Shown here piece by piece: positions 16,344 through 32,717 of a stretch of DNA of 64,000 bases. The stretch is from Blastopirellula retiformator (lineage in GTDB: Bacteria > Planctomycetota > Planctomycetia > Pirellulales > Pirellulaceae). How positions within the stretch are numbered: the first letter of the stretch is position 1; each line of letters opens with the position of its first letter. The notes under the pieces are model-generated. The model had not been told where the DNA came from, searched no databases, and saw nothing but the letters and a program-made list of their open reading frames with translations. The translations under genes were made by a program, and so were the position numbers. Where the stretch lies: contig NZ_SJPF01000002.1 of the NCBI RefSeq assembly GCF_007859755.1, forward strand, positions 329,729-393,728. The letters are read 5' to 3'.

Positions 16344-17993
16344 TTACTTCGCGTTGTCGATCAACTCGAGCGCTTGCGCGGCGGCGTCGCGAACCGCCGG
16401 GTCTTCGTCTTGCAACAGCCCCTTCAGCGCCGGAGCGGCCGATTTGGCGGGGGCGCCCAATTGGCCGAGCAACTGCGAGGCGCCCTTGCGAGCGATCGGG
16501 TCTTTCGCCTTCAGAGCCTTGGTCAGCTCCGGCAAAATCTTGGCGGTCGCCGACTTCCCTTCGATCTGCAGTAGCGCCCAGGCCGACAAGACGCGTAGCG
16601 ACGCGTCTTCGCTACTGGTCATCGTTTTTTCGAGCGATGGCGCCGCGTCCTTTGCGGCCGGGCCAATCTTGCCGAGCGCCAAAGCGGCGTCGTGAGGGTC
16701 TTTGCCAGTCCCTTCTTCGACTTCTTTTGCCAACCGCGGCGCGGCGGCTTCGGCGGCCGGACCGATGGCGGCCAGCGCCAACACGGCGGCGTCTTCGGTT
16801 CGCGGGTTCTCGTCATCGATCAACTTGACTAACGCCGGAACGGCCGGGGCCGCCTTGTCTCCCATTTCGCCCAAGATCTGAGCGATTTGCGGTCGCAACC
16901 GGGGATTCTTGAGCGCCGCGGTCAGATGCGGGATTCCTTCTGGGCCCAAGCTGGCCAAGACATGAATCGCGTCGCCCAGGTTGGCCGGATCGACGCCGGG
17001 AAGCGTCTTGTGCAGTTCGGCGATGACCAGCTCGGGCTTGGCATGAAGCGAGATCAACGCTTTAGCGGCCGCCGAACGGATCCAAGCGTTGTCGCTGGCG
17101 ACCCCTTTCGCCAAGCGCTCGACCACTTCGGTCTGCAGCGCCGCATCGTTGGGATTGGCTCGCGCTAGGGCCCAGCGGCTCAATAGGCTGAGGATCGGAT
17201 CTTTGCTGTCGACGTTGGCGGTGATCCGCTCTTGCGCTTCGGCTGGAACTGTGCCAATGCGGCCCAGGGCGAATGTCGCCGCCAGTTTCAGATGTTCTTC
17301 GTCCAGGCACTTGGCGATGGCGGGAACCGACGCTTTGGCCGCTTCCGGCATGCTGGCCAAGGCCAGGATCGCTTCGCGACGGGTTTCGATCGGCGCTCCC
17401 GGCAATAGTTCGGTCAGTGCGGGCGCCGCTTCAGCCGCATCGGGGCCAATTTCACGCAGCACCAGGCACGCCCAGAAGGCCGATTTTTCGTTCTTCAGGG
17501 CCATGGCCAAGCCGGGGACGGCAGGTTTGCCGGCGTCGGCGATCGCGTGCATCACACGCAGACGAACGGCGGGATCGGCGTCGCTGAGCAACTTGGCGAA
17601 CAGGCCGACCACTTTCTGGCGATCCGGATGAATCGCTTGCAGCGCGCCGATCGCCTGACGGCGAACCATCGGATCGGAGTCGCCGACCAGTTCGACGAGC
17701 GCGTCGACGGCCGGTTCGGCGGCGTGGCCGATTTCGCCCAGGGCATGGGCGGCATGAGCACGAACCATCGCCGAGCTCGACTTCAGTTGTTTGGTCAACG
17801 GAGCGACCGCCGCAGCGCCGTCAACGCCCGCGGCGCCCAGCTTATCGATGGCGGTGATTTGGGTCTCTTCGCTCGACGACGAGAGAGCTTCGATCGATTG
17901 CTCGACGTCGCCCGGGGCCGAGAAAGCGGCGCCGGTGAAGCCAAGCGAGGCGGCCAGCGCCAGCGACGCCAGACCGTGGAGGTGAATACGCAT
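16344..17993 (-). CDS. Exported HEAT-repeat (PBS-lyase-like) protein
   Basis: A 549-aa protein with a signal peptide (MRIHLHGLASLALAASLGFTGAAFSA), then almost entirely HEAT repeats of about 35-38 residues from about 40 to 545. Typical units are SAMVRAHAAHALGEIGHAAE and DPMVRRQAIGALQAIHPD. No catalytic residues are evident, and it is probably an extracytoplasmic binding scaffold. Planctomycetes carry many such proteins. It has its own terminator downstream and is 36 nt from the next gene upstream, with which it may share a transcript. It is not part of the SWIM/MoxR operon despite also having HEAT repeats. Confidence 0.83.
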   Translation of the reverse strand: MRIHLHGLASLALAASLGFTGAAFSAPGDVEQSIEALSSSSEETQITAIDKLGAAGVDGAAAVAPLTKQLKSSSAMVRAHAAHALGEIGHAAEPAVDALVELVGDSDPMVRRQAIGALQAIHPDRQKVVGLFAKLLSDADPAVRLRVMHAIADAGKPAVPGLAMALKNEKSAFWACLVLREIGPDAAEAAPALTELLPGAPIETRREAILALASMPEAAKASVPAIAKCLDEEHLKLAATFALGRIGTVPAEAQERITANVDSKDPILSLLSRWALARANPNDAALQTEVVERLAKGVASDNAWIRSAAAKALISLHAKPELVIAELHKTLPGVDPANLGDAIHVLASLGPEGIPHLTAALKNPRLRPQIAQILGEMGDKAAPAVPALVKLIDDENPRTEDAAVLALAAIGPAAEAAAPRLAKEVEEGTGKDPHDAALALGKIGPAAKDAAPSLEKTMTSSEDASLRVLSAWALLQIEGKSATAKILPELTKALKAKDPIARKGASQLLGQLGAPAKSAAPALKGLLQDEDPAVRDAAAQALELIDNAK

Positions 17994-18029
17994 AATTTTT
18001 ATCTCTATGGATGTAAGGCGTCGAAGGAA

Positions 18030-18683
18030 TTACTGCAAACCAACCTGGCACGTCTGGTAGAGCAAGCTCTTGAGAAACGAGCTGGCTTCGACGTACTGTT
18101 GCGGCGGAACCTTTTTGATGCCGCTTTTCAGCTTGGCGTTCATTTCGTCGGCCGTTTGGATAAACGCGTTGGTATCCTGGTAACCGAGTTCGCCGTTGGT
18201 CGCCTTCTTTTCCAGCAGGCTCGACAATTCGTCCCGTTCCGACTCGAACGACGGATACTGGAGCAGCAGCGGCCATTCCACTTGTCCGCTGACGGCGTTC
18301 ACCTGATCCGGCGAGAGCGGTTTGGGCGCCGCTTCTTTGGCGAGATAGGCCATTTGCTCTTCCGACGGATGCACTCGTTTGGTCGCTTCGTAGGCGTCGC
18401 GACGCTCTCGCATCTGGAAGTAGGTGTCGGCGTACTGTTGATGGTTGGAGATCTCGTTGCTTTGCGCTTGCGTCGCGTAAACGGCCGCTTGCGCCGTTTG
18501 CAGGTTGTACGAGCCTTGGGCGCTGGTCAGATTCGCCATTCCGTTCAGGGCGCCTTCTTCGGCGGTCGAAGCATGGTAACCGCCATACCCATAGCCATAA
18601 CCCGGCGGCGGATAGCCGGCCGGTTGTGCGAGGGCGACGCCTGCGAGAAGGAGAACAGGGAGCGAATACAGCATCAATTTCAT
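18030..18683 (-). CDS. Small exported protein of unknown function
   Basis: A 217-aa product starting at MKLMLYSLPVLLLAGVALAQ, a good signal peptide. The frame can be extended 21 codons upstream, but that segment (Pro/Arg-rich) lacks a signal peptide and overlaps the terminator hairpin at 18732-18761. After cleavage there is a Pro/Gly/Tyr-rich stretch (PPPGYGYGYGGYH), then a helical, Gln/Glu-rich body. I do not recognise a family. The neighbouring genes also encode small exported proteins. Confidence 0.7.
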   Translation of the reverse strand: MKLMLYSLPVLLLAGVALAQPAGYPPPGYGYGYGGYHASTAEEGALNGMANLTSAQGSYNLQTAQAAVYATQAQSNEISNHQQYADTYFQMRERRDAYEATKRVHPSEEQMAYLAKEAAPKPLSPDQVNAVSGQVEWPLLLQYPSFESERDELSSLLEKKATNGELGYQDTNAFIQTADEMNAKLKSGIKKVPPQQYVEASSFLKSLLYQTCQVGLQ

Positions 18684-18731
18684 CGTAAGTTCTCTCAAGG
18701 GTCGGAGAAGCGAAGGTGTAGGGGGAAAGCA

Positions 18732-18761
18732 AATCGGCGCTCTCATCAGAGATCGCCGAAT
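18732..18761 (-). terminator. Probable terminator after the Gly-rich protein gene
   Basis: TCGGCG (18734-18739) pairs with CGCCGA (18754-18759), extended by CTCT/AGAG with a small bulge. On the minus strand the hairpin is followed by TTTGCTTT. It lies 25 nt past the stop codon at 18786. Imperfect, hence moderate confidence. Confidence 0.5.
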
Positions 18762-18785
18762 TGAGGGTGTAGGTAGTCTACGGGA

Positions 18786-20357
18786 CTACTGTCCCAAAGG
18801 ATCGTCCGAGCTCGCGCTATCGGGCTTCTTCAGCCGGACCAGCAACCATTGCTCGGTCTTGTCTTTGCCGAAGTGGATCAGGACCGGAGCTTCATCCTTG
18901 GTCAGATTGTACAGCCCGGTTTCGACCACGTTGTTGGTGTTGTCGCCGACCGTAAATGCGACGCGTTGCGTTTTCTTGTCGGCCGAACCCTGAATGACTT
19001 CCGACTTGCCGGTCTTGGTATCAGTATAGTTGCCGCGAATGATCCCGTCCTTGTTGATCGCCAGCTGGATCGTCACGTCCGAGGTCGTTTCGCCCGATTT
19101 CGACAGGGCGAACACGCCCAGCGGCAGCCAGTCGCCATCGGAAGACGCCTGAGCTTGGGCCCCGTCGGTAGCCAGCGTGCTGGCCGAGTCATAGTACTCT
19201 TCCGGCGTGCCGACGCTTTGGCCGTTCACATAGACCGAGTTGTCTTGGTAGACGACCGTGTTGCCATAGTCGTAATAGACCGGAGCGTCCGAATAGCCCA
19301 TCCAGGCGTCCAGCGAACCCCAGGTCGCCGCTCGCCAGCAATAGCCAGCGGCCCAACCCGCGGCGAACCAGGCGCCCGGATGATCGGTATACCAACCAGG
19401 ACCATAGACGCCCCAGTGATTGAAATTGGTGCGAACGCCCACGGCACAGTGATAACGATCGGTGGGAGAAACGCGGACGAAGCCCGCCGCCGCTCCATGC
19501 GGACCAACCACGGCGCCGCGAGCCGCGAAACCGCCGTTGGGACCGCGAACCGCTCCGCCAGCGGCGATGTCGCCGCGCGGACCACGAGCGATCGCCTGAC
19601 CACCCTTGGCGCCATCAGCGCCTTCAAAACCGCGTCCAGCGACCGCCCCGCCATTGGGGCCAACGGCGCCGCCGCGGCCCACCGTGTTGTCGCGGGGGCC
19701 AGTGATCGACGTGCCAGAGGCGGCGCCGCCGCGCGGACCGTCGACCGAGCCATGGTTGATGTCAAAGTAGTTGCCGTCGTGGCTGTAGTGACTAGCGCTG
19801 GTTCCCAGTCCATGGAGTCCGCCGTCGGACGGCAGGCCGAGGAAACTGTTTAGCTGACTGCGACTTGGGGCCGCGCCGCCAAATGCGCCAGCGCCGAGAC
19901 CACCCCGATCCAGACCGCCGCCGCCCAGACCAGCGCCACCGCCCAGACCGCCGCGATCCAAGGCGCCGCCACCCAATCCGCTGCCGCCGAGGCCGCCGCG
20001 ATCGAGACCGCCACCCCCCAGGTTACCGCCGCCCAGGCCGCCAAAATTTCCACCGCGCGATAGGCCGCCGCCTCCACCGAGACCGCCAGCGCCGAGGCCT
20101 CCGCCTCCCAGGCCGCCGAGATCACCGCCGCGAGGAAGTCCCCCGCCGCCCAATCCGCCGCCGCCAAAGTTGCCGCCGTGGAAGCCGCCTCCGCCGAGGC
20201 CTCCGCCCATTCCGCCATGCATGCCGCCGCCGAAGCCGCCGCCACCCATGCCGCCATGGAAACCGCCTCCTCCAAAACCACCACGAGCCCAACATTGGGT
20301 GCTGGCGATGGCGAGCATCAGTCCGCAGGTTACTGTCCAAGAAAGTTGACGTTTCAT
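18786..20357 (-). CDS. Exported Gly-rich repeat protein
   Basis: A 523-aa product starting at MKRQLSWTVTCGLMLAIAST (three codons inside the longest frame), a signal peptide ending near CWA. Residues about 25-155 are low-complexity glycine repeats built on GGGGFHGGMG and later LDRGGLGGGG units; about 190-290 contains imperfect GPRGG/GPNGG repeats. A central aromatic-rich region (WGVYGPGWYTDHPGAWFAAG) and a C-terminal beta-rich domain (about 415-515, with LPLGVFALSKSGETTSDV) follow. This looks like a surface or cell-envelope protein; no enzymatic motif is seen. The repeats could be unstable through slippage. Confidence 0.78.
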   Translation of the reverse strand: MKRQLSWTVTCGLMLAIASTQCWARGGFGGGGFHGGMGGGGFGGGMHGGMGGGLGGGGFHGGNFGGGGLGGGGLPRGGDLGGLGGGGLGAGGLGGGGGLSRGGNFGGLGGGNLGGGGLDRGGLGGSGLGGGALDRGGLGGGAGLGGGGLDRGGLGAGAFGGAAPSRSQLNSFLGLPSDGGLHGLGTSASHYSHDGNYFDINHGSVDGPRGGAASGTSITGPRDNTVGRGGAVGPNGGAVAGRGFEGADGAKGGQAIARGPRGDIAAGGAVRGPNGGFAARGAVVGPHGAAAGFVRVSPTDRYHCAVGVRTNFNHWGVYGPGWYTDHPGAWFAAGWAAGYCWRAATWGSLDAWMGYSDAPVYYDYGNTVVYQDNSVYVNGQSVGTPEEYYDSASTLATDGAQAQASSDGDWLPLGVFALSKSGETTSDVTIQLAINKDGIIRGNYTDTKTGKSEVIQGSADKKTQRVAFTVGDNTNNVVETGLYNLTKDEAPVLIHFGKDKTEQWLLVRLKKPDSASSDDPLGQ

Positions 20358-20399
20358 GGCTACCATCCGTTCTTTGATTTTTGATTGGGGGAGTGAGAA

Positions 20400-21338
20400 C
20401 TACGGCTGCGACGCCTGACGCTTGATCACGACTTCGTCGGTATCGGGAAGCGGTTGGCCTCCGATCGAGCGGGAAGTCGATTGCCAGACGTACGCGTTCT
20501 CGTCCAGCTTGGTGAGCGTGTTGACCGATTCGGTCGGCAGTCCGCCGCCGGTCACGCCACGCATGGTGGCGGTAAATCCGTTCTCGATCGGCGTCCAGAG
20601 GCCGGTCGCGTGCCCGCCGTCGGCGCTGAAGTTCCAGGACTGAACCTGACCCTTAATTGGATTCCAGCCAATCAACTGCACGCCAGAGACTTTCGCTCCC
20701 TTGGGACCGGTCGTCGTGTAGGTTCGCTCGACGAAGCTCTTGTTGGCGACCCAGCGACACTCCGATTCGATTCGCATGCCGTACTCTTCGGCCGACCATT
20801 TGCCGATCAACCACTGCAGATCGGCGATCTTTTGATGCACCGAAGGCAGGCCGACCCGGCGATCGCGAACCGACGCCATCCGCCACTTGCCGTCCAGCTT
20901 GACTTGGATGGCGGCGTAAGCGCCGTAAACGGGCTCACCATCGGCGACTTCACTGACTAGGGTGCGACCTTCTTCCAGAGCCGCTTCGTCGCTCAGCAGT
21001 TGGATCGAGTCGACGACGACTTCGATCTTTGTCTCGGGATTCTTCTTGAAGAGTTCCGCGTAAGCGGCTTCGATCTCTTTTTGACCAGTAAACTTGCGCC
21101 CCGAGTCGTCGACAAATTGTCCGTGGGGCGTCCACAGGGCGGCGACCGCCGCGGCGTCACCTTGGTTGAATGCGGTGACGAAGGCCTGCGATTGATCACG
21201 AATCGCCGTTAGGCTTTCGCTTTGATCGGAATGAACCTCTTGCTTTTCTTTGACGTCGTCTTCGGCGGCGAATACGGATACCGGCATCACCAAAGCGACA
21301 AGCAACGCGGCTCGCGTCGCCAGAGAATGTGTGGTCAC
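20400..21338 (-). CDS. Exported SgcJ/SnoaL-like (NTF2-fold) protein
   Basis: A 312-aa protein with signal peptide (cleavage near VFA, residue 24). Residues about 45-165 form an NTF2-like domain of the SgcJ/YybH/DUF4440 type, with AFVTAFNQGDAAAVAALWTP and FTGQKEIEAAYAELFKKNPE. The second half (about 168-308) has beta-rich features such as LQWLIGKWSAE and GWNPIKGQVQSWNF, as in DUF1579-like or lipocalin-type domains. Many planctomycetes carry this two-domain arrangement. It may bind a small hydrophobic ligand; catalysis is unproven. It lies 42 nt upstream of the Gly-rich gene. Confidence 0.82.
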   Translation of the reverse strand: MTTHSLATRAALLVALVMPVSVFAAEDDVKEKQEVHSDQSESLTAIRDQSQAFVTAFNQGDAAAVAALWTPHGQFVDDSGRKFTGQKEIEAAYAELFKKNPETKIEVVVDSIQLLSDEAALEEGRTLVSEVADGEPVYGAYAAIQVKLDGKWRMASVRDRRVGLPSVHQKIADLQWLIGKWSAEEYGMRIESECRWVANKSFVERTYTTTGPKGAKVSGVQLIGWNPIKGQVQSWNFSADGGHATGLWTPIENGFTATMRGVTGGGLPTESVNTLTKLDENAYVWQSTSRSIGGQPLPDTDEVVIKRQASQP

Positions 21339-23966: not shown

Positions 23967-25271
23967 CTACGGATTGGTCGAAGTCGCTTGCGGAGCGAAG
24001 ATCGGCGCCGCCGGCTGCGGAACCGCGAGCGCCGCTTCTTTGGTTTCGATAAATTTCCGCTGCATCGCCTGCATTGCATATTTCGCAGCATTGGCGTGAT
24101 AGCGAGCGACGACCGCCGGGGCGAGCTTCCGCTTGGCCCACGATTGTTTCACCATGGCGGTTTCGGACAGCAATTTGTCTTCGGCGGTCCACAGATCGGC
24201 CCAGATGCTGGGCAACAGGCGTGTGTAAACGCCATCTCTGTCCGGCGTCAGATTCCATTCACGCAGCGAAATCGCAATTTCTCCGAGCTCTCCGCCGCGG
24301 TCGTCTTGCAACTCTTCGGCGACCCCGCCGGCGACCCAACAAGGGACGGCGATCGAGAATTTGGGGTCACCCAGGATCGTCCACATCGTGGTCAAAGCCG
24401 GGTCTTCGCCCGGCGAGACGCCATGAAACACGGCGGCCGAAACGGTCGTGGTGCGGCTGATGGTATTCTTGGTCGAAATCGTTTCGGGCAAGGTACCGCT
24501 GGGCGAGTTGACGGTGCCGGGCAGCGCCGCTTCGCCGCTCGCCATGTCGCGGGTGCACTGACGAACGACATGCTCCAGCGATAGTTTGCCGCCATCTTCG
24601 ACCTGCATCAGCGAGCAGGCTCGCAGGTAGCGATCGGCCGAATAGATCTTGCCCAATTCTTCGGCGGTCGGGTTGGCGCCCAGATCATGAGCAGTCGTCG
24701 AAAAATTCGAGCGGACCACGTAGCCGTTGGGCGCGACCACGGGATCGTTGGCGTCAAATTTCTTGAATGATTTAGGACCGGTCTCAAACAGCGCGGCGCC
24801 GCCGGAAGCGTCGATCACGCCAAAGTTGGCGACCGTTTTGCGGCCGGTTCGATTGGTTTCTTCCAGCAGTTTTTCGAAGTCGGCGACCGTAGCGCAGGTC
24901 TGCAGGGCCTTCTTCATCAGACCGCCGTTGCCGGGGCCCGACTGCTTGCCTTCCAAGGCGAGATCGCGGCTGACCGAGTTTTCGATGCAAAAGCCGGCTT
25001 CGTTGGTTCCCATCCAGACGCTGCCACGGCTACCGGCGTTGAAGACGCCGATCGCTTTGTACTTGCCATCCTCAAACAAGGCGACTTCGTTGTGCATCGT
25101 CGAAGACGTATCGCGGTTCTTCCACAAGATTGGTCGGCCGTCGACGGTCGCCTTGCCGCTGATCACCGCTGTCGTGCAGGCGCGAGTTTCGACGCCGCTG
25201 AAGAAGCTCGTCGACATCGCCAACATGCCAAGAAGAATCGCAACGGGATGGGCGGAAGTATGTCGATCCAT
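23967..25271 (-). CDS. Exported Ntn hydrolase (C45/acyltransferase-like)
   Basis: A 434-aa protein with signal peptide followed directly by a sequence typical of Cys N-terminal-nucleophile hydrolases: CTTAVISGKATVDGRPILWK, then NRDTSS and GVFNAGSRGSVWMGTNEAGFCIENS. Cys32 immediately follows Ala31, so signal-peptidase cleavage there would itself expose the catalytic Cys. The family includes acyl-CoA:6-aminopenicillanic acid acyltransferases, carcinine hydrolases and related amidases; the substrate is unknown. The C-terminal tail is Ala/Pro-rich. It lies in one direction with the BPL_N-like gene and is divergent from a XylR-type regulator, which may control it. Confidence 0.85.
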   Translation of the reverse strand: MDRHTSAHPVAILLGMLAMSTSFFSGVETRACTTAVISGKATVDGRPILWKNRDTSSTMHNEVALFEDGKYKAIGVFNAGSRGSVWMGTNEAGFCIENSVSRDLALEGKQSGPGNGGLMKKALQTCATVADFEKLLEETNRTGRKTVANFGVIDASGGAALFETGPKSFKKFDANDPVVAPNGYVVRSNFSTTAHDLGANPTAEELGKIYSADRYLRACSLMQVEDGGKLSLEHVVRQCTRDMASGEAALPGTVNSPSGTLPETISTKNTISRTTTVSAAVFHGVSPGEDPALTTMWTILGDPKFSIAVPCWVAGGVAEELQDDRGGELGEIAISLREWNLTPDRDGVYTRLLPSIWADLWTAEDKLLSETAMVKQSWAKRKLAPAVVARYHANAAKYAMQAMQRKFIETKEAALAVPQPAAPIFAPQATSTNP

Positions 25272-25653
25272 GATTGTTCTCAGGGGGGTTCGTTTGGGGG
25301 AAACGCTCAGGTGGGAAGTGGCGGGGCAGCGACTGCACTGATTCTGCGCAGTCCCGCCTGCTTTTTATGAAGTATCGCTGCGCCAGATTTCGTCACAATG
25401 ATTTTTTGCGCAGAATAATGTTCGTTTTTTCCGAGACAGGCTTCCATCTGCAGCCCCGAAAGCGCACATATCATCATTGGCGAAATAAATTAGATCGTAA
25501 AAGCCGCAGTCACTCTTCGGCCCGGAAATTGCTGCCGTAGTTATACTTAATGAGAGTCGGCAAGCCGCATTCCGCCTGCCAGAGAAGACTCACCCTCCCT
25601 CGCACACCTTCCCCACTAGCCTCCATTACAACCGCCAAAGAACACGACTTCGC
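25272..25653. promoter_or_regulatory. Divergent promoter region with a split inverted repeat
   Basis: A 382-bp gap between the divergent Ntn-hydrolase and regulator genes. ATTCTGCGCA (25341-25350) and TGCGCAGAAT (25407-25416) are exact reverse complements with 56 bp between them. They lie about 70-145 bp upstream of the hydrolase start and could be half-sites for the neighbouring XylR-type regulator. I see no gene in this gap. Confidence 0.4.
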
Positions 25654-26853
25654 ATGATACAACGACTGTCGGTATACCCCGATCGACTTCGAATCGCGCT
25701 GTTGGTTTTGAACGAAAGCCATTGGAGCCGATCGGTCCTGGAAGGCGTCTCCCGCTTTGCCGCCGAGCATGGCGGCTGGGATTTCTGGCTCAATCCGCGC
25801 GGCATGAAAACGCAAGCGCTGATGCCGTCCGACTGGAAGGGAGAAGGTATCATCGCGCGGATTTCAGACCAGCGAGTGCAAGATTCGCTGGAGTGTCATG
25901 ACTGCGCGACCATCAATGTCTCGTGGCATAGCGAACATTCCGAGCGGTTTCCGAAAGTGATCGCCGATCCGGTCGGATGTGGCGAGCTGGCGGGCAACTT
26001 TTTCGTCCAGCGCGGATTTCAGCACTTTGGGTACATCGGTCCCCCGCTCTGCTTCAATTACCGCGATCCGGTTCAGCCCGCGGTCAAGCGAGTGGTCGAG
26101 GAGGCCAATTTTTCGCTCTCGACGTTCGATCCGGATCCCTCCTCCCCGTCATCCGACTTTGATTATCAGCGGTCCCGCCTAGTCGAATGGGTCCGTGCTT
26201 TGCCGAAACCGATCGGCATCGTCGCGTTCTCGACCGTCGTCGCTCGGGAGGTGATGCTGACCTGCTCGGCAGAGGGAATCAACGTTCCGAACGACGTGGC
26301 GGTCTTGGCGGTCGAACATGATCCGCTCATCTCTCAATTGTCGCCGATGCCGATTTCGTACATTCAGCAGCGGCCGGAACTGGTCGGTTATGAAGCGGCT
26401 CGCGAGCTGAAACGCTTGATTTCTGGGGGCGAGCCGCGCGAACAGCCGATTTGCATCGCACCAGAAGGCATCATCGAAAAACCGTCGACCGATACGATTT
26501 TCGCCGCCGACGAGATGGTGCAAGATGCGGTCGCGTTTATCAAACGGAATTCCGACACGGCGATCAACGTCTCGGATCTGACGCGACATCTCGACGTCTC
26601 GCGGCGTTCGCTGGAAGACCGCTTTCGCAAGGCGCTGAATCGGACGCCGGCCGAAGAGATCCGCCATGCCCGACTATTAGTACTGAAAGACTACCTGCGG
26701 CAAACGAATCTCTCGTTGGCCGAAATCAGCGCCCGATCGGGATTCAGCTGCGAGAACGCCACATTGCGCTTCTTTAAGCGAATGACCGGAATGACGCCGG
26801 GCGAATACCGGCGCAATTACGATCCGATCACCGCCGCTCATTCTGAGCTTTAA
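25654..26853 (+). CDS. XylR-type transcriptional regulator (LacI-like sensor plus AraC HTH)
   Basis: A 399-aa cytoplasmic regulator. Residues about 12-280 form a periplasmic-binding-protein-like sensor of the XylR/LacI type (RIALLVLNESHWSRSVLEGV, HFGYIGPPLCFNYR, DVAVLAVEHDPLISQLSP). Residues about 290-390 form an AraC-type double helix-turn-helix (INVSDLTRHLDVSRRSLEDR, SLAEISARSGFSCENATLRF and FKRMTGMTPGEYRR). The architecture is that of E. coli XylR, which senses xylose; planctomycetes have many paralogues with unknown sugar ligands. It is transcribed away from the Ntn-hydrolase gene and may regulate it or the DUF1559 gene downstream. Confidence 0.9.
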   Translation: MIQRLSVYPDRLRIALLVLNESHWSRSVLEGVSRFAAEHGGWDFWLNPRGMKTQALMPSDWKGEGIIARISDQRVQDSLECHDCATINVSWHSEHSERFPKVIADPVGCGELAGNFFVQRGFQHFGYIGPPLCFNYRDPVQPAVKRVVEEANFSLSTFDPDPSSPSSDFDYQRSRLVEWVRALPKPIGIVAFSTVVAREVMLTCSAEGINVPNDVAVLAVEHDPLISQLSPMPISYIQQRPELVGYEAARELKRLISGGEPREQPICIAPEGIIEKPSTDTIFAADEMVQDAVAFIKRNSDTAINVSDLTRHLDVSRRSLEDRFRKALNRTPAEEIRHARLLVLKDYLRQTNLSLAEISARSGFSCENATLRFFKRMTGMTPGEYRRNYDPITAAHSEL

Positions 26854-27232
26854 GTTGGGTGGGCTCGCTGCGCTGCGAGTTGAAGTACGCGGCGGCTGCT
26901 GACGCCGTAGCACGATAAGTCGGTCGTCTGCTTCGATCGTGGGCACATTGCGGCCGTTGTCTTCCTGCAAGAATTGGGCGATTTACCCCACCTCTGGTCG
27001 CCGCTTCTTAAAAAGTAGCGCGCAGGCGCCTAAAAATTATGCGGACAAACGTGGTGAAACAATAATTTTGTCCTGCCATGCAAAATTGGTTAATCATTTT
27101 GCGTGAACGTCCCTAGGAGCCGCCTGAATGTGAACTTAACTTAATTTCAGGCAATCGAGCGAAGCGGATTTGTCGCTTGAAGCAAATCACGAATTCATTC
27201 ATACCAATTCAGACGCAGAAGAAGAGGACCAT
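26854..27232 (+). promoter_or_regulatory. Intergenic region upstream of the DUF1559 gene
   Basis: A 379-bp gap with no gene. It should hold the promoter of the DUF1559 gene. A small dyad (GGACAAA at 27043-27049 and TTTGTCC at 27067-27073) lies in an AT-rich stretch about 160-190 nt before the start. A GC-rich palindrome just after the regulator stop (CTCGCTGCGCTGCGAG) has no T run. A strong ribosome site (AAGAAGAGGA) precedes the ATG at 27233. Confidence 0.35.
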
Positions 27233-28237
27233 ATGACTTTGCAAACTCTGTCACGTCCAGGCGCCCGTCGTGGGTTTACGCTGGTCGAACTTCTGGTCGT
27301 GATCGCCATCATCGGCGTCTTAATCGCCCTGCTGCTGCCGGCCGTGCAACAGGCTCGCGAAGCGGCTCGTCGGATGCAATGCCGAAACAATCTGAAGCAG
27401 ATGGGCTTGGCCCTGCACAACTATCATGACGTGCATGGATCGTTCCCGGCCGGTTACTATCGCCACCGGGACCATGGCAGCGTTTCGGTCTTCCAAGGAC
27501 CTGGTTGGGGCTGGGGAACGATGATTCTGCCGCAGTTGGAAGAGAACAATCGATTCGATGGGCTGAACGTCAGCAACCGCCATGCGTCGGACGATGCCGA
27601 CATCCTGCAATACTCGCAACCGCCGATCAGCGCCTTTCGCTGTCCCAGCGCTCCGGGCGGAGATCTGAATGAAGCGTTTCCGAACTCGACTTCAGCGCCG
27701 GCGCATGGTCTCTCGACCTACAAGGGAGTTTTTGGTGATCGCAATACGCAGTACTCCAGCTACTCCGACTTGGCCGACTGCCCTTACACCGCCGGCAGCT
27801 GCAACGAAGGGGGCAACGGGATCTTCTCGCCCAACAGCAAGGTGAGCTTCCGCGATATTACCGACGGCACGACCAATACGGTGATGATCGGTGAAGTCCC
27901 CTATGGCCCCAATGGTTCGGTCAATAGCTCGGGCGACCTGATCGATTATCGCGGCTCGGTCTGGATCGGGATCACGGCCGATGGCAATTCGACCGCCGGC
28001 GTCCGCTCGAACGTCGCGACGATTCAAACGCTTCGCGGGTTGAACGGCAGCGGATCGACTAGCACGTTGTACAAAATTAACGGCAGCAACAGCTACTCGT
28101 TTGGCTCGCATCATGCCGGCGGGGCGCAGTTTGTTTTGGCCGACGCCAGCGCTCGTTTCATCGCTTCGACGGTTGAACCGTCCTTGTTGAATCGGATTTC
28201 GGCCCGCAACGACGGTCAAGTGGTCGGCGAGTTCTAG
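27233..28237 (+). CDS. DUF1559 prepilin-like protein
   Basis: A 334-aa protein with an N-terminal type IV prepilin-like cleavage/methylation segment: RRGFTLVELLVVIAIIGVL, then ALLLPAVQQAREAARR. The canonical DUF1559 motif RMQCRNNLKQMGLALHNYHD follows, and the end has FGSHHAGGAQFVLADAS-ARFI, matching the family C-terminal motif although the usual DG is DA here. DUF1559 proteins are a hallmark of planctomycetes, often present in dozens of copies, and probably form pseudopilin-like envelope structures. The ATG at 27233 is chosen over the longer frame from 27170 because AAGAAGAGGA lies at ideal spacing. A small lipoprotein gene follows, a common pairing. Confidence 0.93.
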   Translation: MTLQTLSRPGARRGFTLVELLVVIAIIGVLIALLLPAVQQAREAARRMQCRNNLKQMGLALHNYHDVHGSFPAGYYRHRDHGSVSVFQGPGWGWGTMILPQLEENNRFDGLNVSNRHASDDADILQYSQPPISAFRCPSAPGGDLNEAFPNSTSAPAHGLSTYKGVFGDRNTQYSSYSDLADCPYTAGSCNEGGNGIFSPNSKVSFRDITDGTTNTVMIGEVPYGPNGSVNSSGDLIDYRGSVWIGITADGNSTAGVRSNVATIQTLRGLNGSGSTSTLYKINGSNSYSFGSHHAGGAQFVLADASARFIASTVEPSLLNRISARNDGQVVGEF

Positions 28238-28398
28238 TCGCTCGTCCAACTACGACGTAGTAATCAGGACAGATTACGTCACACAGCTCTGGGCGATTTG
28301 AGATCGAAGTCCCCCACGGCGCCTTAAGGCGAAAGCGTTTCGCGAACGACCAACGCAAATTTACGGCAGACAACCTCTTGCTCCAAAAAGTTAATTGC

Positions 28399-28842
28399 AT
28401 GAAACGAAGCTTGCCATATTACCTAAGTACGCTGTTGCTACTGACCGGCTGCAGCTCGTACGCGAGTCAAATCGAAACGATCGCCGTTCAGGGTATCGTT
28501 CAAATGGAAGGTAAGCCGGTCGAGAACGTCGAGGTCGCATTTCTCTCGGAAGATTTGCCGATGGCGTTTGGCATTACCGATGCGGAAGGAAAATACGAGT
28601 TAGCGACGCGGCGGTATGGCAAAGGAGCGTCGCCAGGAGACTATACGGCGAAGATCTATATGACCGACAAAACAGCGATTGGTGGGACCGGAAGAAAAGT
28701 GCGGATCCCGAAGGTCTACAGCGAAAAAGGGGTCGCCGCGGTTACGGTCGACGCCGACAGCGGCAGCCAATTTGACTTTGACCTCGTCAGCAAACCGCCT
28801 CGCAAGCCAAAGGACTGGAACGAGCAAGAAGGGGAACAATAA
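28399..28842 (+). CDS. Small lipoprotein with carboxypeptidase-regulatory-like domain
   Basis: A 147-aa lipoprotein from the ATG at 28399. The signal ends in a lipobox (LLLTGCSSY), so Cys18 would be lipidated. The rest is one beta-sandwich of the carboxypeptidase-regulatory/transthyretin-like type (VQGIVQMEGKPVENVEVAFL, then FGITDAEGKYEL). Such small lipoproteins commonly follow DUF1559 genes in planctomycetes, and a role together in the envelope is likely but unproven. The C-terminal tail is basic then acidic (KPPRKPKDWNEQEGEQ). The alternative TTG at 28378 is less likely. Confidence 0.83.
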   Translation: MKRSLPYYLSTLLLLTGCSSYASQIETIAVQGIVQMEGKPVENVEVAFLSEDLPMAFGITDAEGKYELATRRYGKGASPGDYTAKIYMTDKTAIGGTGRKVRIPKVYSEKGVAAVTVDADSGSQFDFDLVSKPPRKPKDWNEQEGEQ

Positions 28843-29315: not shown

Positions 29316-32300
29316 ATGCGAAGTCCCCGTAGAAACCGCCGCAGGTGCAAACCGGTTTCCGAAGTTCGCTATGAGCAGCTTGAGACGCGTTCGATGTTCG
29401 CCGCCGCTTCGTTGGGCGACGATGCGACTGAGTTGGGCCCCGCCGGCGCCACGACCGTGATCACCGGTCAGATCCTCAGCCCCAACAACGAACCGCTGGC
29501 CGGCGTGCCGGTCGAATTGGCAGGCGTCACGACGGTAACCGACGCTTACGGCGTATTCAAGATTGAACTGCCGTGGGCCGCCCTGCCGACCGATTCGTTG
29601 GACATTCCTGTTCCGGCTGGCGACCCCTATTTTGATCCCTACAATACCGGCGTCGCCACGATCCCGATGCGTCGGGCCCGCTACGACGCTACGACCGGCG
29701 ACAGCGCCAGCAATCCACTTGCGCATCAAAATCTGATTACCAGTTTTCTCGACGCGGGGATGGTTTACGGCAGCGATGACCATCGCGCGGCGGCGCTGCG
29801 CACCTTTGTCGAGGGAAAGCTGAAGACGAGCGCCGGCGATCTGCTGCCGCTGAATGACCTGGCGACGTTTCCCGAAGGACAACAAGAGAACGACAATGCC
29901 GGGCCGTTTGACGCGGCCGAACTGTTTGTCGCCGGGGACGTGCGATCGAATGAAAACGTCGCCCTGACTTCGCTTCATACGCTACTGGTCCGCGAGCACA
30001 ATCGTTTGGCGGACGAAATCAAGACCGCCGATCCGGCGCTGACCGACGAACAAATCTATCAGCAGGCCCGCCGCCTAGTCGGTGCGATCGTGCAACAGAT
30101 CACTTACTACGAGTATCTGCCGATCCTGGTTGGCGAAACCGGCTTGTCGACCTACGCAGGCTACGACGAGACGGTTGATCCCGCGATTAGTTCCCTCTTC
30201 TCGAATGCCGCGTACCGCGTTGGGCACACGCAGCTGTTCTCTGAGATTCAGCGTTTGGACGAACAGCTCAACTCATTGCCTGGCGGATCGCTCGAATTGC
30301 GCTATGCCTTTTTCAATCCGCAGGCGGTCGCCGCCGATGGGATCGAGCCGTATCTACGCGGGCTCTATCTGAGTCAGTCGGAAGAGATTGACGAATTGGT
30401 CATTAGCGACGTCCGTAATTTTCTGTTTGGCCCGCCTGGCGCCGGCGGATTGGATTTGGCGGCGATCAACATCCAGCGTGGGCGCGATCTGGGACTGCCC
30501 AGCTACAACCAGGCGCGGATCGATTTTGGACTGCCGGCGGCCACGTCGTTCAGCGAGATATCGTCCGATCCGGCCGTCGCCTTGAAACTAGAGCAGGCGT
30601 ATGGCGACGTTGACTTGGTCGACATCTGGGTCGGCGGCGTCGCCGAAGACCATGTCGCCGGCGCCCAGCTTGGTCCGCTGTTTCAAAGGATCATCGCCGA
30701 TCAATTCGCCCGAGCCCGCGACGGCGATCGCTACTATTTTGAGAATGGTCAATTCACCGCCGACGAAATGGCGCTGATCCAAAGCACCACGCTCACCCGT
30801 CTGATCGAGCGAAACACGTCGATCACCGGCATGAATGAGAACGCCTTTTTGCTGAACGGCGGCGCAGCGGCGCCTGCGGCGAACGTCACGCTGGCGACCG
30901 AGACGTCGTCCGACTATCGCACCACCGACGGTCAGGGAAACAACCAAATCGATCCAACCGCCGGCGCCGCCAATGACAACCTGGCGCACAACTTCACGGT
31001 GTCGTATGGCGACGACTATTTCTCGCCGGCGGGCGCCGATCGCCCGAGCACCCGCGAGATCAGCAACACGGTGATGGATCAATCGGCGTCGGTCCCCAAC
31101 AGCGCAGGGACGAGCGGTTTCTTCGTCTTCTGGGGCCAACTGCTCGATCACGACCTCGACCTGACTCCCGGCGGCGTCACGAATGACCTGAACATGGACG
31201 GGACGGACTATGTCGATGCGGTGACCGGAGCGACGTACGAATTGGCGTCAGACAAGGTCAGCCTGATGCTGGGGCACGAGGTCTATTCCGGCGCCAAGAA
31301 CGTCATGCTGGAGCCGATCAAGCTGACCAAGAACGAGACAGGCTCCCACAACCTGTTCGCCCACTTCTCTGGCGAGATTCAAACGCTGGGGCAAACGCAA
31401 AGCTTTGCGATCTCGGTATCGGAAGAAGACTTTCAGCTCCACTCCGAGGCGATCTTGCTCGGTTGGAAAGTGACGGCCACCGGTGGCGGTTCGTTTGATC
31501 CGGCGGCGGTGCAGATTTTCGATTCCCAGGGGCAACCGGTAGCGGCGGAAGTCGTCTGGCAAGACGCGCCGACCGGCGACAATAGCAGCTACATGCTCGC
31601 GTGGCTTGCGCCGGGCGAGTATGACGTGCGGGTTGCGGGCCAAGGTTCGACGACCGGCTCGTTCGTCGTGCACGCCTATCTGCCCAGCGACCATCGCGGC
31701 GACGGAACGGTCGACGTGCTCGACTTGATCAACGTTCTCGATCGGATCTCGGCCCAGCGACATGATGTCGACGGAGTCGACTATTATCGCGCGGAGGCCG
31801 ATCTCAATGGTGACGGCGTCTTGTCGCAAGCGGATGTCGATTTGCTTGTCGACAATGTTCGAAACGCGACGACGCTCGACCCGATCTTCCTGTCGCTGCA
31901 GCTAGATCCAGAGTCCGACACCGGTGAGATCGGCGACGGAATTACCTCTACCTCTCTGGTCCATCTATGCGGCGTGGCGCCGGTTGGATCGATGGTTGCC
32001 TTCGATGTGAACGGCGACGGCATCATCGATGGTCAGGTGATCGCCGGCGAGTACGAAAACGGGGCCAGCTATCATTACGACGCGCTACTGATGGAGGGCG
32101 AAAATCGCCTGCGGGTGAACGTGACCGACGAGTTTGGTCAGTCGCTAACGCGCCAGATGACGCTGACGCTAGATCGAATCGCGCCGCATGTGGTCGCCAC
32201 TGGACCGACTTCCAATGGATTGGTGGTTAGCGCCAACACCAGCGACTTTACCATTGAGGTGCAGCTAAACGAGTCGGCGCCGCTGGCCGATATTTTGGCT

Positions 32301-32717
32301 GCGATCACCGTGATCGGGAACATTTCTGGCGTTGTGACCCCACTCAATCCGCGGTGGATCGACGCTACCCGGACCTTCCGCTTCGATCTCGACGGTTCGC
32401 TCCCCGATACCAGTTTCTCGGTACTGTTGGGGAGCGCCTTTACCGACCCAGCGGGCAATCCGTTCACTCCCTACGGATTTTCGTTTCGGCGGGCGGTCGT
32501 CTTCGGCGACAACGCCTATTCGCAGGTCTTGGCGGCCGGCATCGAGTATTTCCAGAAGATCGGGGGTTCGGTTTACTTCAGCAGCGAGTTTGCTAGCCAA
32601 GTCCTGACGTTGATCGAACTGATCGAGTCCGAATCGCTCGAAGCGGAATCGGCTCGCGATGACGAGGTCGATCTAGTTTTTGCTGAACAAGAAGGTCTGG
32701 AAGAGCCCCTTGGTTAG
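29316..32717 (+). CDS. Exported haem peroxidase with permuted domain order, plus dockerin-like and Ig-like regions
   Basis: A 1133-aa exported protein. It opens with a basic tract and VRYEQLETRSMFAA, the N-terminal export/anchoring motif of large planctomycete proteins. Residues about 47-90 resemble a carboxypeptidase-regulatory domain. About 94-515 is the bulk of an animal-type haem peroxidase (DIPVPAGDPYFDP, FLDAGMVYGSDD, LVREHNRLADE, AAYRVGHTQL with proximal His304, VRNFLFGPPGAGGLDLAAIN, then IQRGRDLGLPSYN). About 535-620 carries the part that normally comes first (RTTDGQGNN, YFSPAGADRPSTREISNTV, FVFWGQLLDHDLDLTPGG with distal His612). Dockerin-like calcium loops lie at about 790-850 and Ig-like beta domains at about 870-1085. 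The swapped order is discussed in the findings. Confidence 0.88.
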   Translation: MRSPRRNRRRCKPVSEVRYEQLETRSMFAAASLGDDATELGPAGATTVITGQILSPNNEPLAGVPVELAGVTTVTDAYGVFKIELPWAALPTDSLDIPVPAGDPYFDPYNTGVATIPMRRARYDATTGDSASNPLAHQNLITSFLDAGMVYGSDDHRAAALRTFVEGKLKTSAGDLLPLNDLATFPEGQQENDNAGPFDAAELFVAGDVRSNENVALTSLHTLLVREHNRLADEIKTADPALTDEQIYQQARRLVGAIVQQITYYEYLPILVGETGLSTYAGYDETVDPAISSLFSNAAYRVGHTQLFSEIQRLDEQLNSLPGGSLELRYAFFNPQAVAADGIEPYLRGLYLSQSEEIDELVISDVRNFLFGPPGAGGLDLAAINIQRGRDLGLPSYNQARIDFGLPAATSFSEISSDPAVALKLEQAYGDVDLVDIWVGGVAEDHVAGAQLGPLFQRIIADQFARARDGDRYYFENGQFTADEMALIQSTTLTRLIERNTSITGMNENAFLLNGGAAAPAANVTLATETSSDYRTTDGQGNNQIDPTAGAANDNLAHNFTVSYGDDYFSPAGADRPSTREISNTVMDQSASVPNSAGTSGFFVFWGQLLDHDLDLTPGGVTNDLNMDGTDYVDAVTGATYELASDKVSLMLGHEVYSGAKNVMLEPIKLTKNETGSHNLFAHFSGEIQTLGQTQSFAISVSEEDFQLHSEAILLGWKVTATGGGSFDPAAVQIFDSQGQPVAAEVVWQDAPTGDNSSYMLAWLAPGEYDVRVAGQGSTTGSFVVHAYLPSDHRGDGTVDVLDLINVLDRISAQRHDVDGVDYYRAEADLNGDGVLSQADVDLLVDNVRNATTLDPIFLSLQLDPESDTGEIGDGITSTSLVHLCGVAPVGSMVAFDVNGDGIIDGQVIAGEYENGASYHYDALLMEGENRLRVNVTDEFGQSLTRQMTLTLDRIAPHVVATGPTSNGLVVSANTSDFTIEVQLNESAPLADILAAITVIGNISGVVTPLNPRWIDATRTFRFDLDGSLPDTSFSVLLGSAFTDPAGNPFTPYGFSFRRAVVFGDNAYSQVLAAGIEYFQKIGGSVYFSSEFASQVLTLIELIESESLEAESARDDEVDLVFAEQEGLEEPLG

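Follow-up and report, generated by a model that had tools for sequence, protein, structure and literature searches.

A circularly permuted haem peroxidase nested in a beta domain in Blastopirellula retiformator

A gene of the planctomycete Blastopirellula retiformator encodes an animal-type haem peroxidase whose two parts follow each other in swapped order and whose peroxidase domain is flanked by the two halves of a small beta domain. The gene lies in a stretch of 64,000 nucleotides, positions 329,729 to 393,728 of contig NZ_SJPF01000002.1, referred to here as the window. We put at roughly 0.84 the probability that its product is a circularly permuted, nested and probably secreted or surface-bound haem-dependent peroxidase that uses hydrogen peroxide (H2O2) and belongs to the peroxidase-cyclooxygenase superfamily. 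In such a protein the new chain ends would lie just past the helix that bears the distal histidine, a linker of 19 residues would join the old ends, and the whole permuted domain would sit as an insert in a loop of a beta domain resembling CarboxypepD_reg. The family, the type of reaction, natural permutation and domain insertion are each already known; new here are a permuted peroxidase nested in a beta domain, empty copies of the host domain and two insertion sites for one permuted clade. Among the matches listed in the open-access literature, outside which subscription papers largely fall, there was no paper on a permuted animal haem peroxidase.

Order of the parts and the haem pocket

The frame of 1133 codons is open throughout from its ATG start, as the first-pass annotation, made from the sequence alone, had stated together with its principal claim, namely that the two halves of a haem peroxidase stand in swapped order. 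That order is confirmed: DIPVPAGDPYFDP begins at residue 96 and RTTDGQGNN at residue 535, and the proximal histidine (H304) precedes the distal histidine (H612) by 308 residues. On the frame product, the Pfam profile PF03098 scores 485 bits against a curated cut-off of 25 (E-value 3.6e-145), in two stretches that follow each other in the wrong order; in the profile search of the genome, profile positions 108-530 are matched by residues 94-511 (E 3.2e-128) and positions 1-90 further towards the C-terminus (E 2.3e-16). Together the two stretches cover 1-90 and 108-530 of the 530 profile positions, which is nearly complete, and this coverage, the score and the presence of both the distal and the proximal triad place the protein in the family. 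Order-dependent domain annotation reports proteins of this kind as two separate pieces, as PF03098 does here.

Alignment to canonical peroxidases, structure prediction and a survey of relatives had been proposed in the first-pass annotation as checks on the swapped order. The best match in both sequence and fold is the peroxidase of Cyanobacterium TDX16 (8s6c, its chain labelled Lactoperoxidase), with 49% identity over 440 columns. This protein has the canonical order, in which the distal part leads directly into the main part, whereas the order is swapped in the window protein: query residues 534-618 correspond to positions 3-87 of 8s6c_A, and residues 88-514 to positions 88-508. Since both stretches of the 8s6c chain are matched by the query, no piece has been lost or doubled; both parts are complete, swapped and abutting, as in a circular permutation.

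Pocket residues were read from the alignment to Dictyostelium PoxA (6erc), with the numbering given in the available part of PMC5787809. Q608, H612 and R210 make up the distal triad, and H304, N385 and R388 the proximal one; reassembled from the swapped parts, they would form a pocket of the lactoperoxidase type. D611 and E213 are the acids predicted to be able to form haem esters, and D613, adjoining the distal histidine, belongs to the calcium site. The window gene has each of the nine pocket positions that were checked. In the alignment of permuted sequences, all 21 rows retain the distal Gln, His and Arg, the calcium-site Asp and the proximal His and Arg; 19 of the 21 also have the ester Glu, as do 80 of 82 canonical rows.

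For the structure prediction, AlphaFold2 was run on residues 40-680 with an alignment (A4) of 74 rows, containing 14 permuted relatives and separate fragments of the main (28) and distal (31) parts of other peroxidases. The model is one confident body, with a mean predicted local distance difference test (pLDDT) score of 91.1 and a predicted template modelling (pTM) score of 0.91; by blocks, pLDDT is 85-88 in the linker, 74-97 in the distal part (83 in the block of the distal histidine) and 75-88 in the C-terminal part of the host domain. On the basis of the pTM score and the conservation of the pocket, the two parts are predicted to come together as one folded unit that shares a single pocket for haem, in agreement with the permutation as first proposed. 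A Foldseek comparison of the model placed 8s6c at the top (template modelling score 0.62 by query and 0.76 by target, 440 columns), with heavy chains of myeloperoxidase (MPO) next among the mammalian matches.

The breakpoint coincides with a known division of the fold. MPO is an enzyme of white blood cells, and its light and heavy chains, like those of eosinophil peroxidase (EPX), are cut proteolytically after synthesis. The distal segment of the window protein (residues 528-625) covers nearly the whole light chain of MPO (1cxp_A, 5-101 of 104) and of EPX (8ogi_A, 3-101 of 104); the heavy chains of both enzymes align with the main part. Because the distal part fits the light chain and the main part the heavy chain, the new ends lie at the site of the light/heavy division in MPO and EPX. 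The likeness concerns the parts rather than their connection: in MPO and EPX a single chain is cut at this site, whereas in the window protein a linker connects the old ends and the parts follow in reverse order. By analogy, the MPO/EPX division is a natural precedent for a fold that survives a break at that site. Natural permutation would hardly be expected in a large haem enzyme whose pocket draws on both chain ends; a conserved gene with its break at the MPO division site suggests that the fold may be opened there without loss of the pocket.

Other known proteins resemble the window protein in part. Bacterial peroxidockerins, Family 6 of the peroxidase-cyclooxygenase superfamily, likewise combine an animal-type peroxidase with a dockerin-like stretch, and the text of PMC4420034, which describes them, contains neither 'circular' nor 'permut'. 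Peroxidockerins are canonical, whereas in the window protein the peroxidase order is swapped and the dockerin-like match falls below its cut-off; because the canonical order of distal before main part is absent, the gene is not classed as an ordinary peroxidockerin. Two-domain peroxidases such as PepA of Pseudomonas putida, as described in the accessible part of PMC3396595, are another rearrangement of the same bacterial domain, and a tandem pair contains the same main-to-distal junction, but it has two domains where the window protein has one permuted domain. The circularly permuted imelysin PIBO is a natural bacterial permutation that was likewise recognised by its swapped halves and in which the fold is kept; it has an unrelated, all-helical fold, and the part of PMC3143127 that was available speaks of no host domain enclosing it.

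A split host domain and its empty copies

On its N-terminal side the main part directly adjoins the leading half of a CarboxypepD_reg-like domain, which PF13620 matches at positions 2-46 of 82 with 29.9 bits against a cut-off of 32.3. The second host half follows directly after the distal part and forms strands in the model; in the window protein it was identified through alignment with the copy of G022, a genome of another genus. The layout of host, main part, linker, distal part and host again is repeated in most permuted copies. With host profiles derived from four rows, one of them that of the window gene, one permuted locus (L081) has no host match and another (L107) matches the first host half only (E <=1e-3). 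At the same threshold, a match to the first host is absent from the frames of all 52 canonical and four tandem loci of the wider scan described below. The first-pass annotation had made no mention of a host domain split between residues 46-91 and 621-670.

Copies of the host that lack the enzyme were found for two insertion sites. When the peroxidase was removed from L034 and the host halves were joined, this query gave 12 uninterrupted matches over nearly its full length in four of 117 genomes (type A), in frames of 2062-5236 amino acids. In a second kind of host (type B), represented by L075 and L079 and found again as L102 and L105, the peroxidase stands after the first strand of a related host domain, and uninterrupted homologues of this host amount to 22 matches in 13 of 241 genomes. 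Both insertion points were located by alignments of seven and eight uninterrupted host homologues. Host halves on both flanks and host homologues free of the insert together identify the peroxidase as a nested domain.

We infer that permutation brings both ends of the enzyme together at its surface, a condition for insertion into a loop. An enzyme of about 530 residues could thereby be spliced into a small host domain and could change its site, and it would be carried as a bulge on the small beta domain of a surface protein. Its putative activity would be the H2O2-driven oxidation of halides, thiocyanate or the surface matrix at the cell surface.

Two of the permuted copies occur in very long frames: that of L077 (4175 amino acids) also holds dockerin domains and RHS and FG-GAP repeats, and that of L079 (4157 amino acids) dockerin domains and several immunoglobulin (Ig)-, PKD- and cadherin-like domains.

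Conservation, second permutation and phylogeny

The first genome search covered 60 genomes, that of B. retiformator included, and the survey of relatives returned the same order repeatedly. It is identical in the congeners G002 (72% identity over residues 2-1130) and G003 (65% over 2-1124, in a single contig) and in G022 (50% over 42-672); in the congener G001 a canonical-order copy was the only one found. No orthologue in canonical order was found among the genomes searched. At the level of the family Pirellulaceae, permuted copies are present in at least 12 of 241 genomes, with at least 16 complete copies and one truncated by a contig end (G110); this count is a minimum, with at most five candidates scored per genome. 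The order of parts was checked in the family copies and is presumed for G110, whose contig ends before the distal part. By contig number and coordinates, the copy of G238 equals that of the named record L105 (G528), which identifies the family as that of Roseiconus nitratireducens. The two profile matches, main and distal, are separated by 20 residues in 19 of 22 distinct copies; the other three (L072, L075 and L101) have 18. Some canonical-order relatives (G084, G113, G108, G149, G199, G009) carry one stop codon in the matched frame, located either in the gene or in an over-extended match end.

Selection was estimated as the ratio of nonsynonymous to synonymous substitution rates (dN/dS) by a Nei-Gojobori count between the window gene and its counterparts in G002 and G003. 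The values, which are rough, are 0.058-0.074 for the main part and 0.037-0.096 for the distal part, compared with 0.25-0.40 for the linker, 0.12-0.24 for the host halves and 0.22-0.27 for the C-terminal region. The main and distal parts are the slowest-evolving stretches, the linker has the highest dN within the permuted domain, and both moved parts are conserved alike. Low dN/dS, the nine retained pocket positions, the shared order in congeners and the one-body model uphold the first-pass suggestion of a complete and maintained permutation.

A scan of named bacterial genomes, from which the best 80 of 559 confirmed loci were kept, placed the window type in a wider context. A search with the junction alone (alignment A3) finds permuted and tandem proteins alike, and the arrangement was therefore determined part by part in all 80 loci: 14 are permuted as in the window, 10 carry a second type of permutation, four are tandem and 52 canonical. 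Eight of the 14 window-type loci are contigs already in the family count; the six new ones are Aquisphaera insulae, a planctomycete, and five cyanobacterial records (two Phormidesmis, Nodosilinea, Vasconcelosia and Leptolyngbya). A junction match (E <=1e-32) was found in one of 339 sampled genomes of the cyanobacterial phylum, this one being the centre of the sample itself, and in four of 337 Verrucomicrobiota genomes, of which two were already known and two (L196 and L197) are new by junction match alone. Matches of this kind are rare. The four tandem double-domain peroxidases (L116, L119, L121 and L123, from Saprospiraceae and Lewinellaceae) have 6-7 residues between the profile matches of their two domains. 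Two metagenome records with titles naming Akkermansia muciniphila, a label taken from the title, differ in order, one of L110 and L139 being permuted and one canonical.

The second permutation (L108-L115, L117 and L118) comprises nine Verrucomicrobiota loci, two of them from one isolate, and one Omnitrophota locus. Here the peroxidase begins at an NPRQ motif, and its C-terminal end takes in the distal part together with a tail of about 40 residues that comes next in the canonical chain. Profile coordinates had indicated that the two ends overlap by about 27 residues; the sequences themselves start at NPRQ and join cleanly, which rules the overlap out. All nine pocket positions are present in eight of eight rows. 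The flanks resemble an Ig-like domain whose last strand is placed after the peroxidase. A second structure prediction, of L114, reached a pLDDT of 86.9 and a pTM of 0.86, with the last strand at 603-612 and pLDDT of 57-72 in the blocks at 551-600, from the distal histidine through the moved tail; the alignment used for it (A5) placed the opening residues of the distal fragments wrongly. Two queries made from joined flanking halves match Glucodextran_B, both below the cut-off, and in the Omnitrophota locus (L113) the Ig-like domain is complete before the peroxidase and matches Glucodextran_B above the cut-off. In the Verrucomicrobiota loci, the second-type peroxidase is probably nested in the Ig-like domain.

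Trees were built with the parts put into one common order. A quick tree of 119 rows omitted L104, L109 and L111 as too short, three duplicates and loci whose gene another row already represents; rows for a careful tree of 76 were chosen after the quick-tree test and include 42 of 82 canonical rows, 19 of 21 window-type and seven of eight second-type permuted rows, and all eight tandem rows. In the 76-row tree, window-type rows form one clade (support 100/100) and second-type rows another (100/99), the latter inside a clade of 17 rows that includes 10 canonical ones (100/99), and a joint clade of both permutations is rejected (p 0.0012). The 119-row quick tree did not reject such a clade (p 0.60), the tree that joins both types even reaching a higher likelihood. 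Since their breakpoints differ and the careful tree keeps them apart, the two permutations are read as independent. The tandem proteins group on their own with one canonical row (100/100). The canonical peroxidase of the same genome (L001, G000:C4:899490-900953, 712 amino acids) falls in a different clade, which leaves a derivation from this paralogue unsupported.

The window-type clade includes the copies at the second host site, which stand beside a first-host copy; the enzyme therefore changed host after its permutation, or hosts were exchanged around the enzyme. Four cyanobacterial rows inside the same clade suggest transfer between phyla. Overall, the balance tips slightly towards a history in which the fold underwent permutation at least twice in bacteria, at breakpoints that lie past the distal-His helix and about 40 residues from each other, with both products inserted in loops of beta-sandwiches; one lineage would later have moved to another host site and passed between planctomycetes and cyanobacteria as a transplantable cassette. 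These observations suggest that natural evolution can re-thread a large enzyme fold and transplant it. With empty and filled hosts, two host sites and a second breakpoint at hand, permutation as a route to insertion becomes a directly testable question.

Alternative readings and features of the gene

Several observations weigh against a permuted, nested and active peroxidase. The ester Asp is present in nine of 21 permuted rows compared with 81 of 82 canonical ones, and the proximal Asn in 11 of 21 compared with 78 of 82; with both relaxed in the clade, some members may therefore differ in chemistry, and an altered attachment of haem may stem from the new chain ends close to the distal-His helix. 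The Foldseek alignment spans about the main part only, because the comparison follows chain order. As to the host domain, the window protein's own match to the host profile is by construction, because the window gene is among the profile rows; its host C-part is divergent, the joined query having matched only the N-part there; and on joined halves PF13620 ends by position 47 of 82 in three type-A joins. Finally, dS in the congener comparisons is 0.9-2.3, near saturation, with one comparison of the N-terminal extension saturated, which makes the dN/dS values approximate and leaves their ranking clear.

The route by which the permutation arose is a question compatible with the preferred reading of a permuted, nested enzyme. 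The first-pass annotation suggested tandem duplication followed by loss of the outer parts; alternatives would be a circularised piece that was inserted, or some other route in a single step. Double-domain peroxidases do exist (four of the best 80 of 559 loci), and two-domain bacterial proteins are described in the accessible part of PMC3396595. The ends of the permuted domain, however, show neither overlap nor duplicated remnant, the tandem proteins stand in a clade of their own, and insertion into a host loop requires an additional step; unsupported by these results, a tandem origin is a tentative proposal to which we give somewhat less than even odds.

The relaxed ester Asp and proximal Asn would fit a permuted peroxidase that is no longer an enzyme and is kept as a structural or haem-binding module. 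Six core catalytic and calcium-site residues invariant in 21 of 21 rows, the full set of nine in the window gene, and peroxidase parts that evolve slowest in the whole protein make a non-enzymatic role unlikely. Alternatively, the active site could be built in trans, with the distal part of one molecule packed on the main part of another in a domain-swapped dimer or a surface polymer, an arrangement compatible with the sequence and with the occurrence of the permuted domain in multidomain, probably surface-located proteins. Modelling of the single chain as one body with an ordered linker, together with the near-constant spacing between the two profile matches, speaks against assembly in trans, which we consider still less probable than loss of activity. 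Misassembly or a broken, decaying rearrangement, the alternative named in the first-pass annotation and suggested by the odd order alone, is ruled out for practical purposes by the recurrence of this order at 50-72% identity in separately assembled genomes, congeners among them, by intact frames and by dN/dS well under 1.

The features of the gene, read as a permuted enzyme within its host domain, are collected in Table 1.

Table 1. Coordinates of the permuted peroxidase gene and its parts within the window
Feature	Position	Strand	Basis
Whole gene, 1133 aa (amino acids): permuted animal-type haem peroxidase in beta domain, with dockerin-like and Ig-like C-terminal parts	29316..32717	+	Frame, Pfam
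N-terminal extension, residues 1-45, contains LETRSMFA	29316..29450	+	Read from sequence
Host domain N-part (CarboxypepD_reg-like), residues 46-91	29451..29588	+	PF13620 29.9 bits; uninterrupted homologues
Heavy-chain-like main part, residues 92-514, PF03098 108-530	29589..30857	+	Pfam, structure alignments
Distal Arg R210 and haem-ester Glu E213	29943..29954	+	6erc alignment
Proximal His H304	30225..30227	+	6erc alignment
Proximal Asn N385 and Arg R388	30468..30479	+	6erc alignment
Linker from old C-terminus to old N-terminus, residues 515-533 (19 residues)	30858..30914	+	Alignment, highest dN
Light-chain-like distal part, residues 534-620, PF03098 1-90	30915..31175	+	Pfam, light-chain match
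Distal Gln Q608, ester Asp D611, distal His H612, calcium-site Asp D613	31137..31154	+	6erc alignment
Host domain C-part, residues 621-670	31176..31325	+	Aligned with G022 copy; strands in model
Dockerin-type-I-like stretch, residues 792-844	31689..31847	+	Dockerin_1, below Pfam cut-off
Two bacterial Ig-like stretches, residues 861-1057 (861-953, 953-1057)	31896..32486	+	Big_13 below, Big_5 above cut-off

The dockerin-like and Ig-like parts noted at first pass are present, Big_5 being above its cut-off, whereas Dockerin_1 (19.8 bits against 22.9) and Big_13 (24 against 27) fall below theirs. The motif LETRSMFA resembles an N-terminal motif of planctomycete surface proteins.

Gene neighbours add to the picture of a maintained gene: of 14 window genes tested, the four directly upstream (23967-28842) also adjoin the orthologue in G002. 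In G003 the neighbours found are the window genes at 17547-21338.

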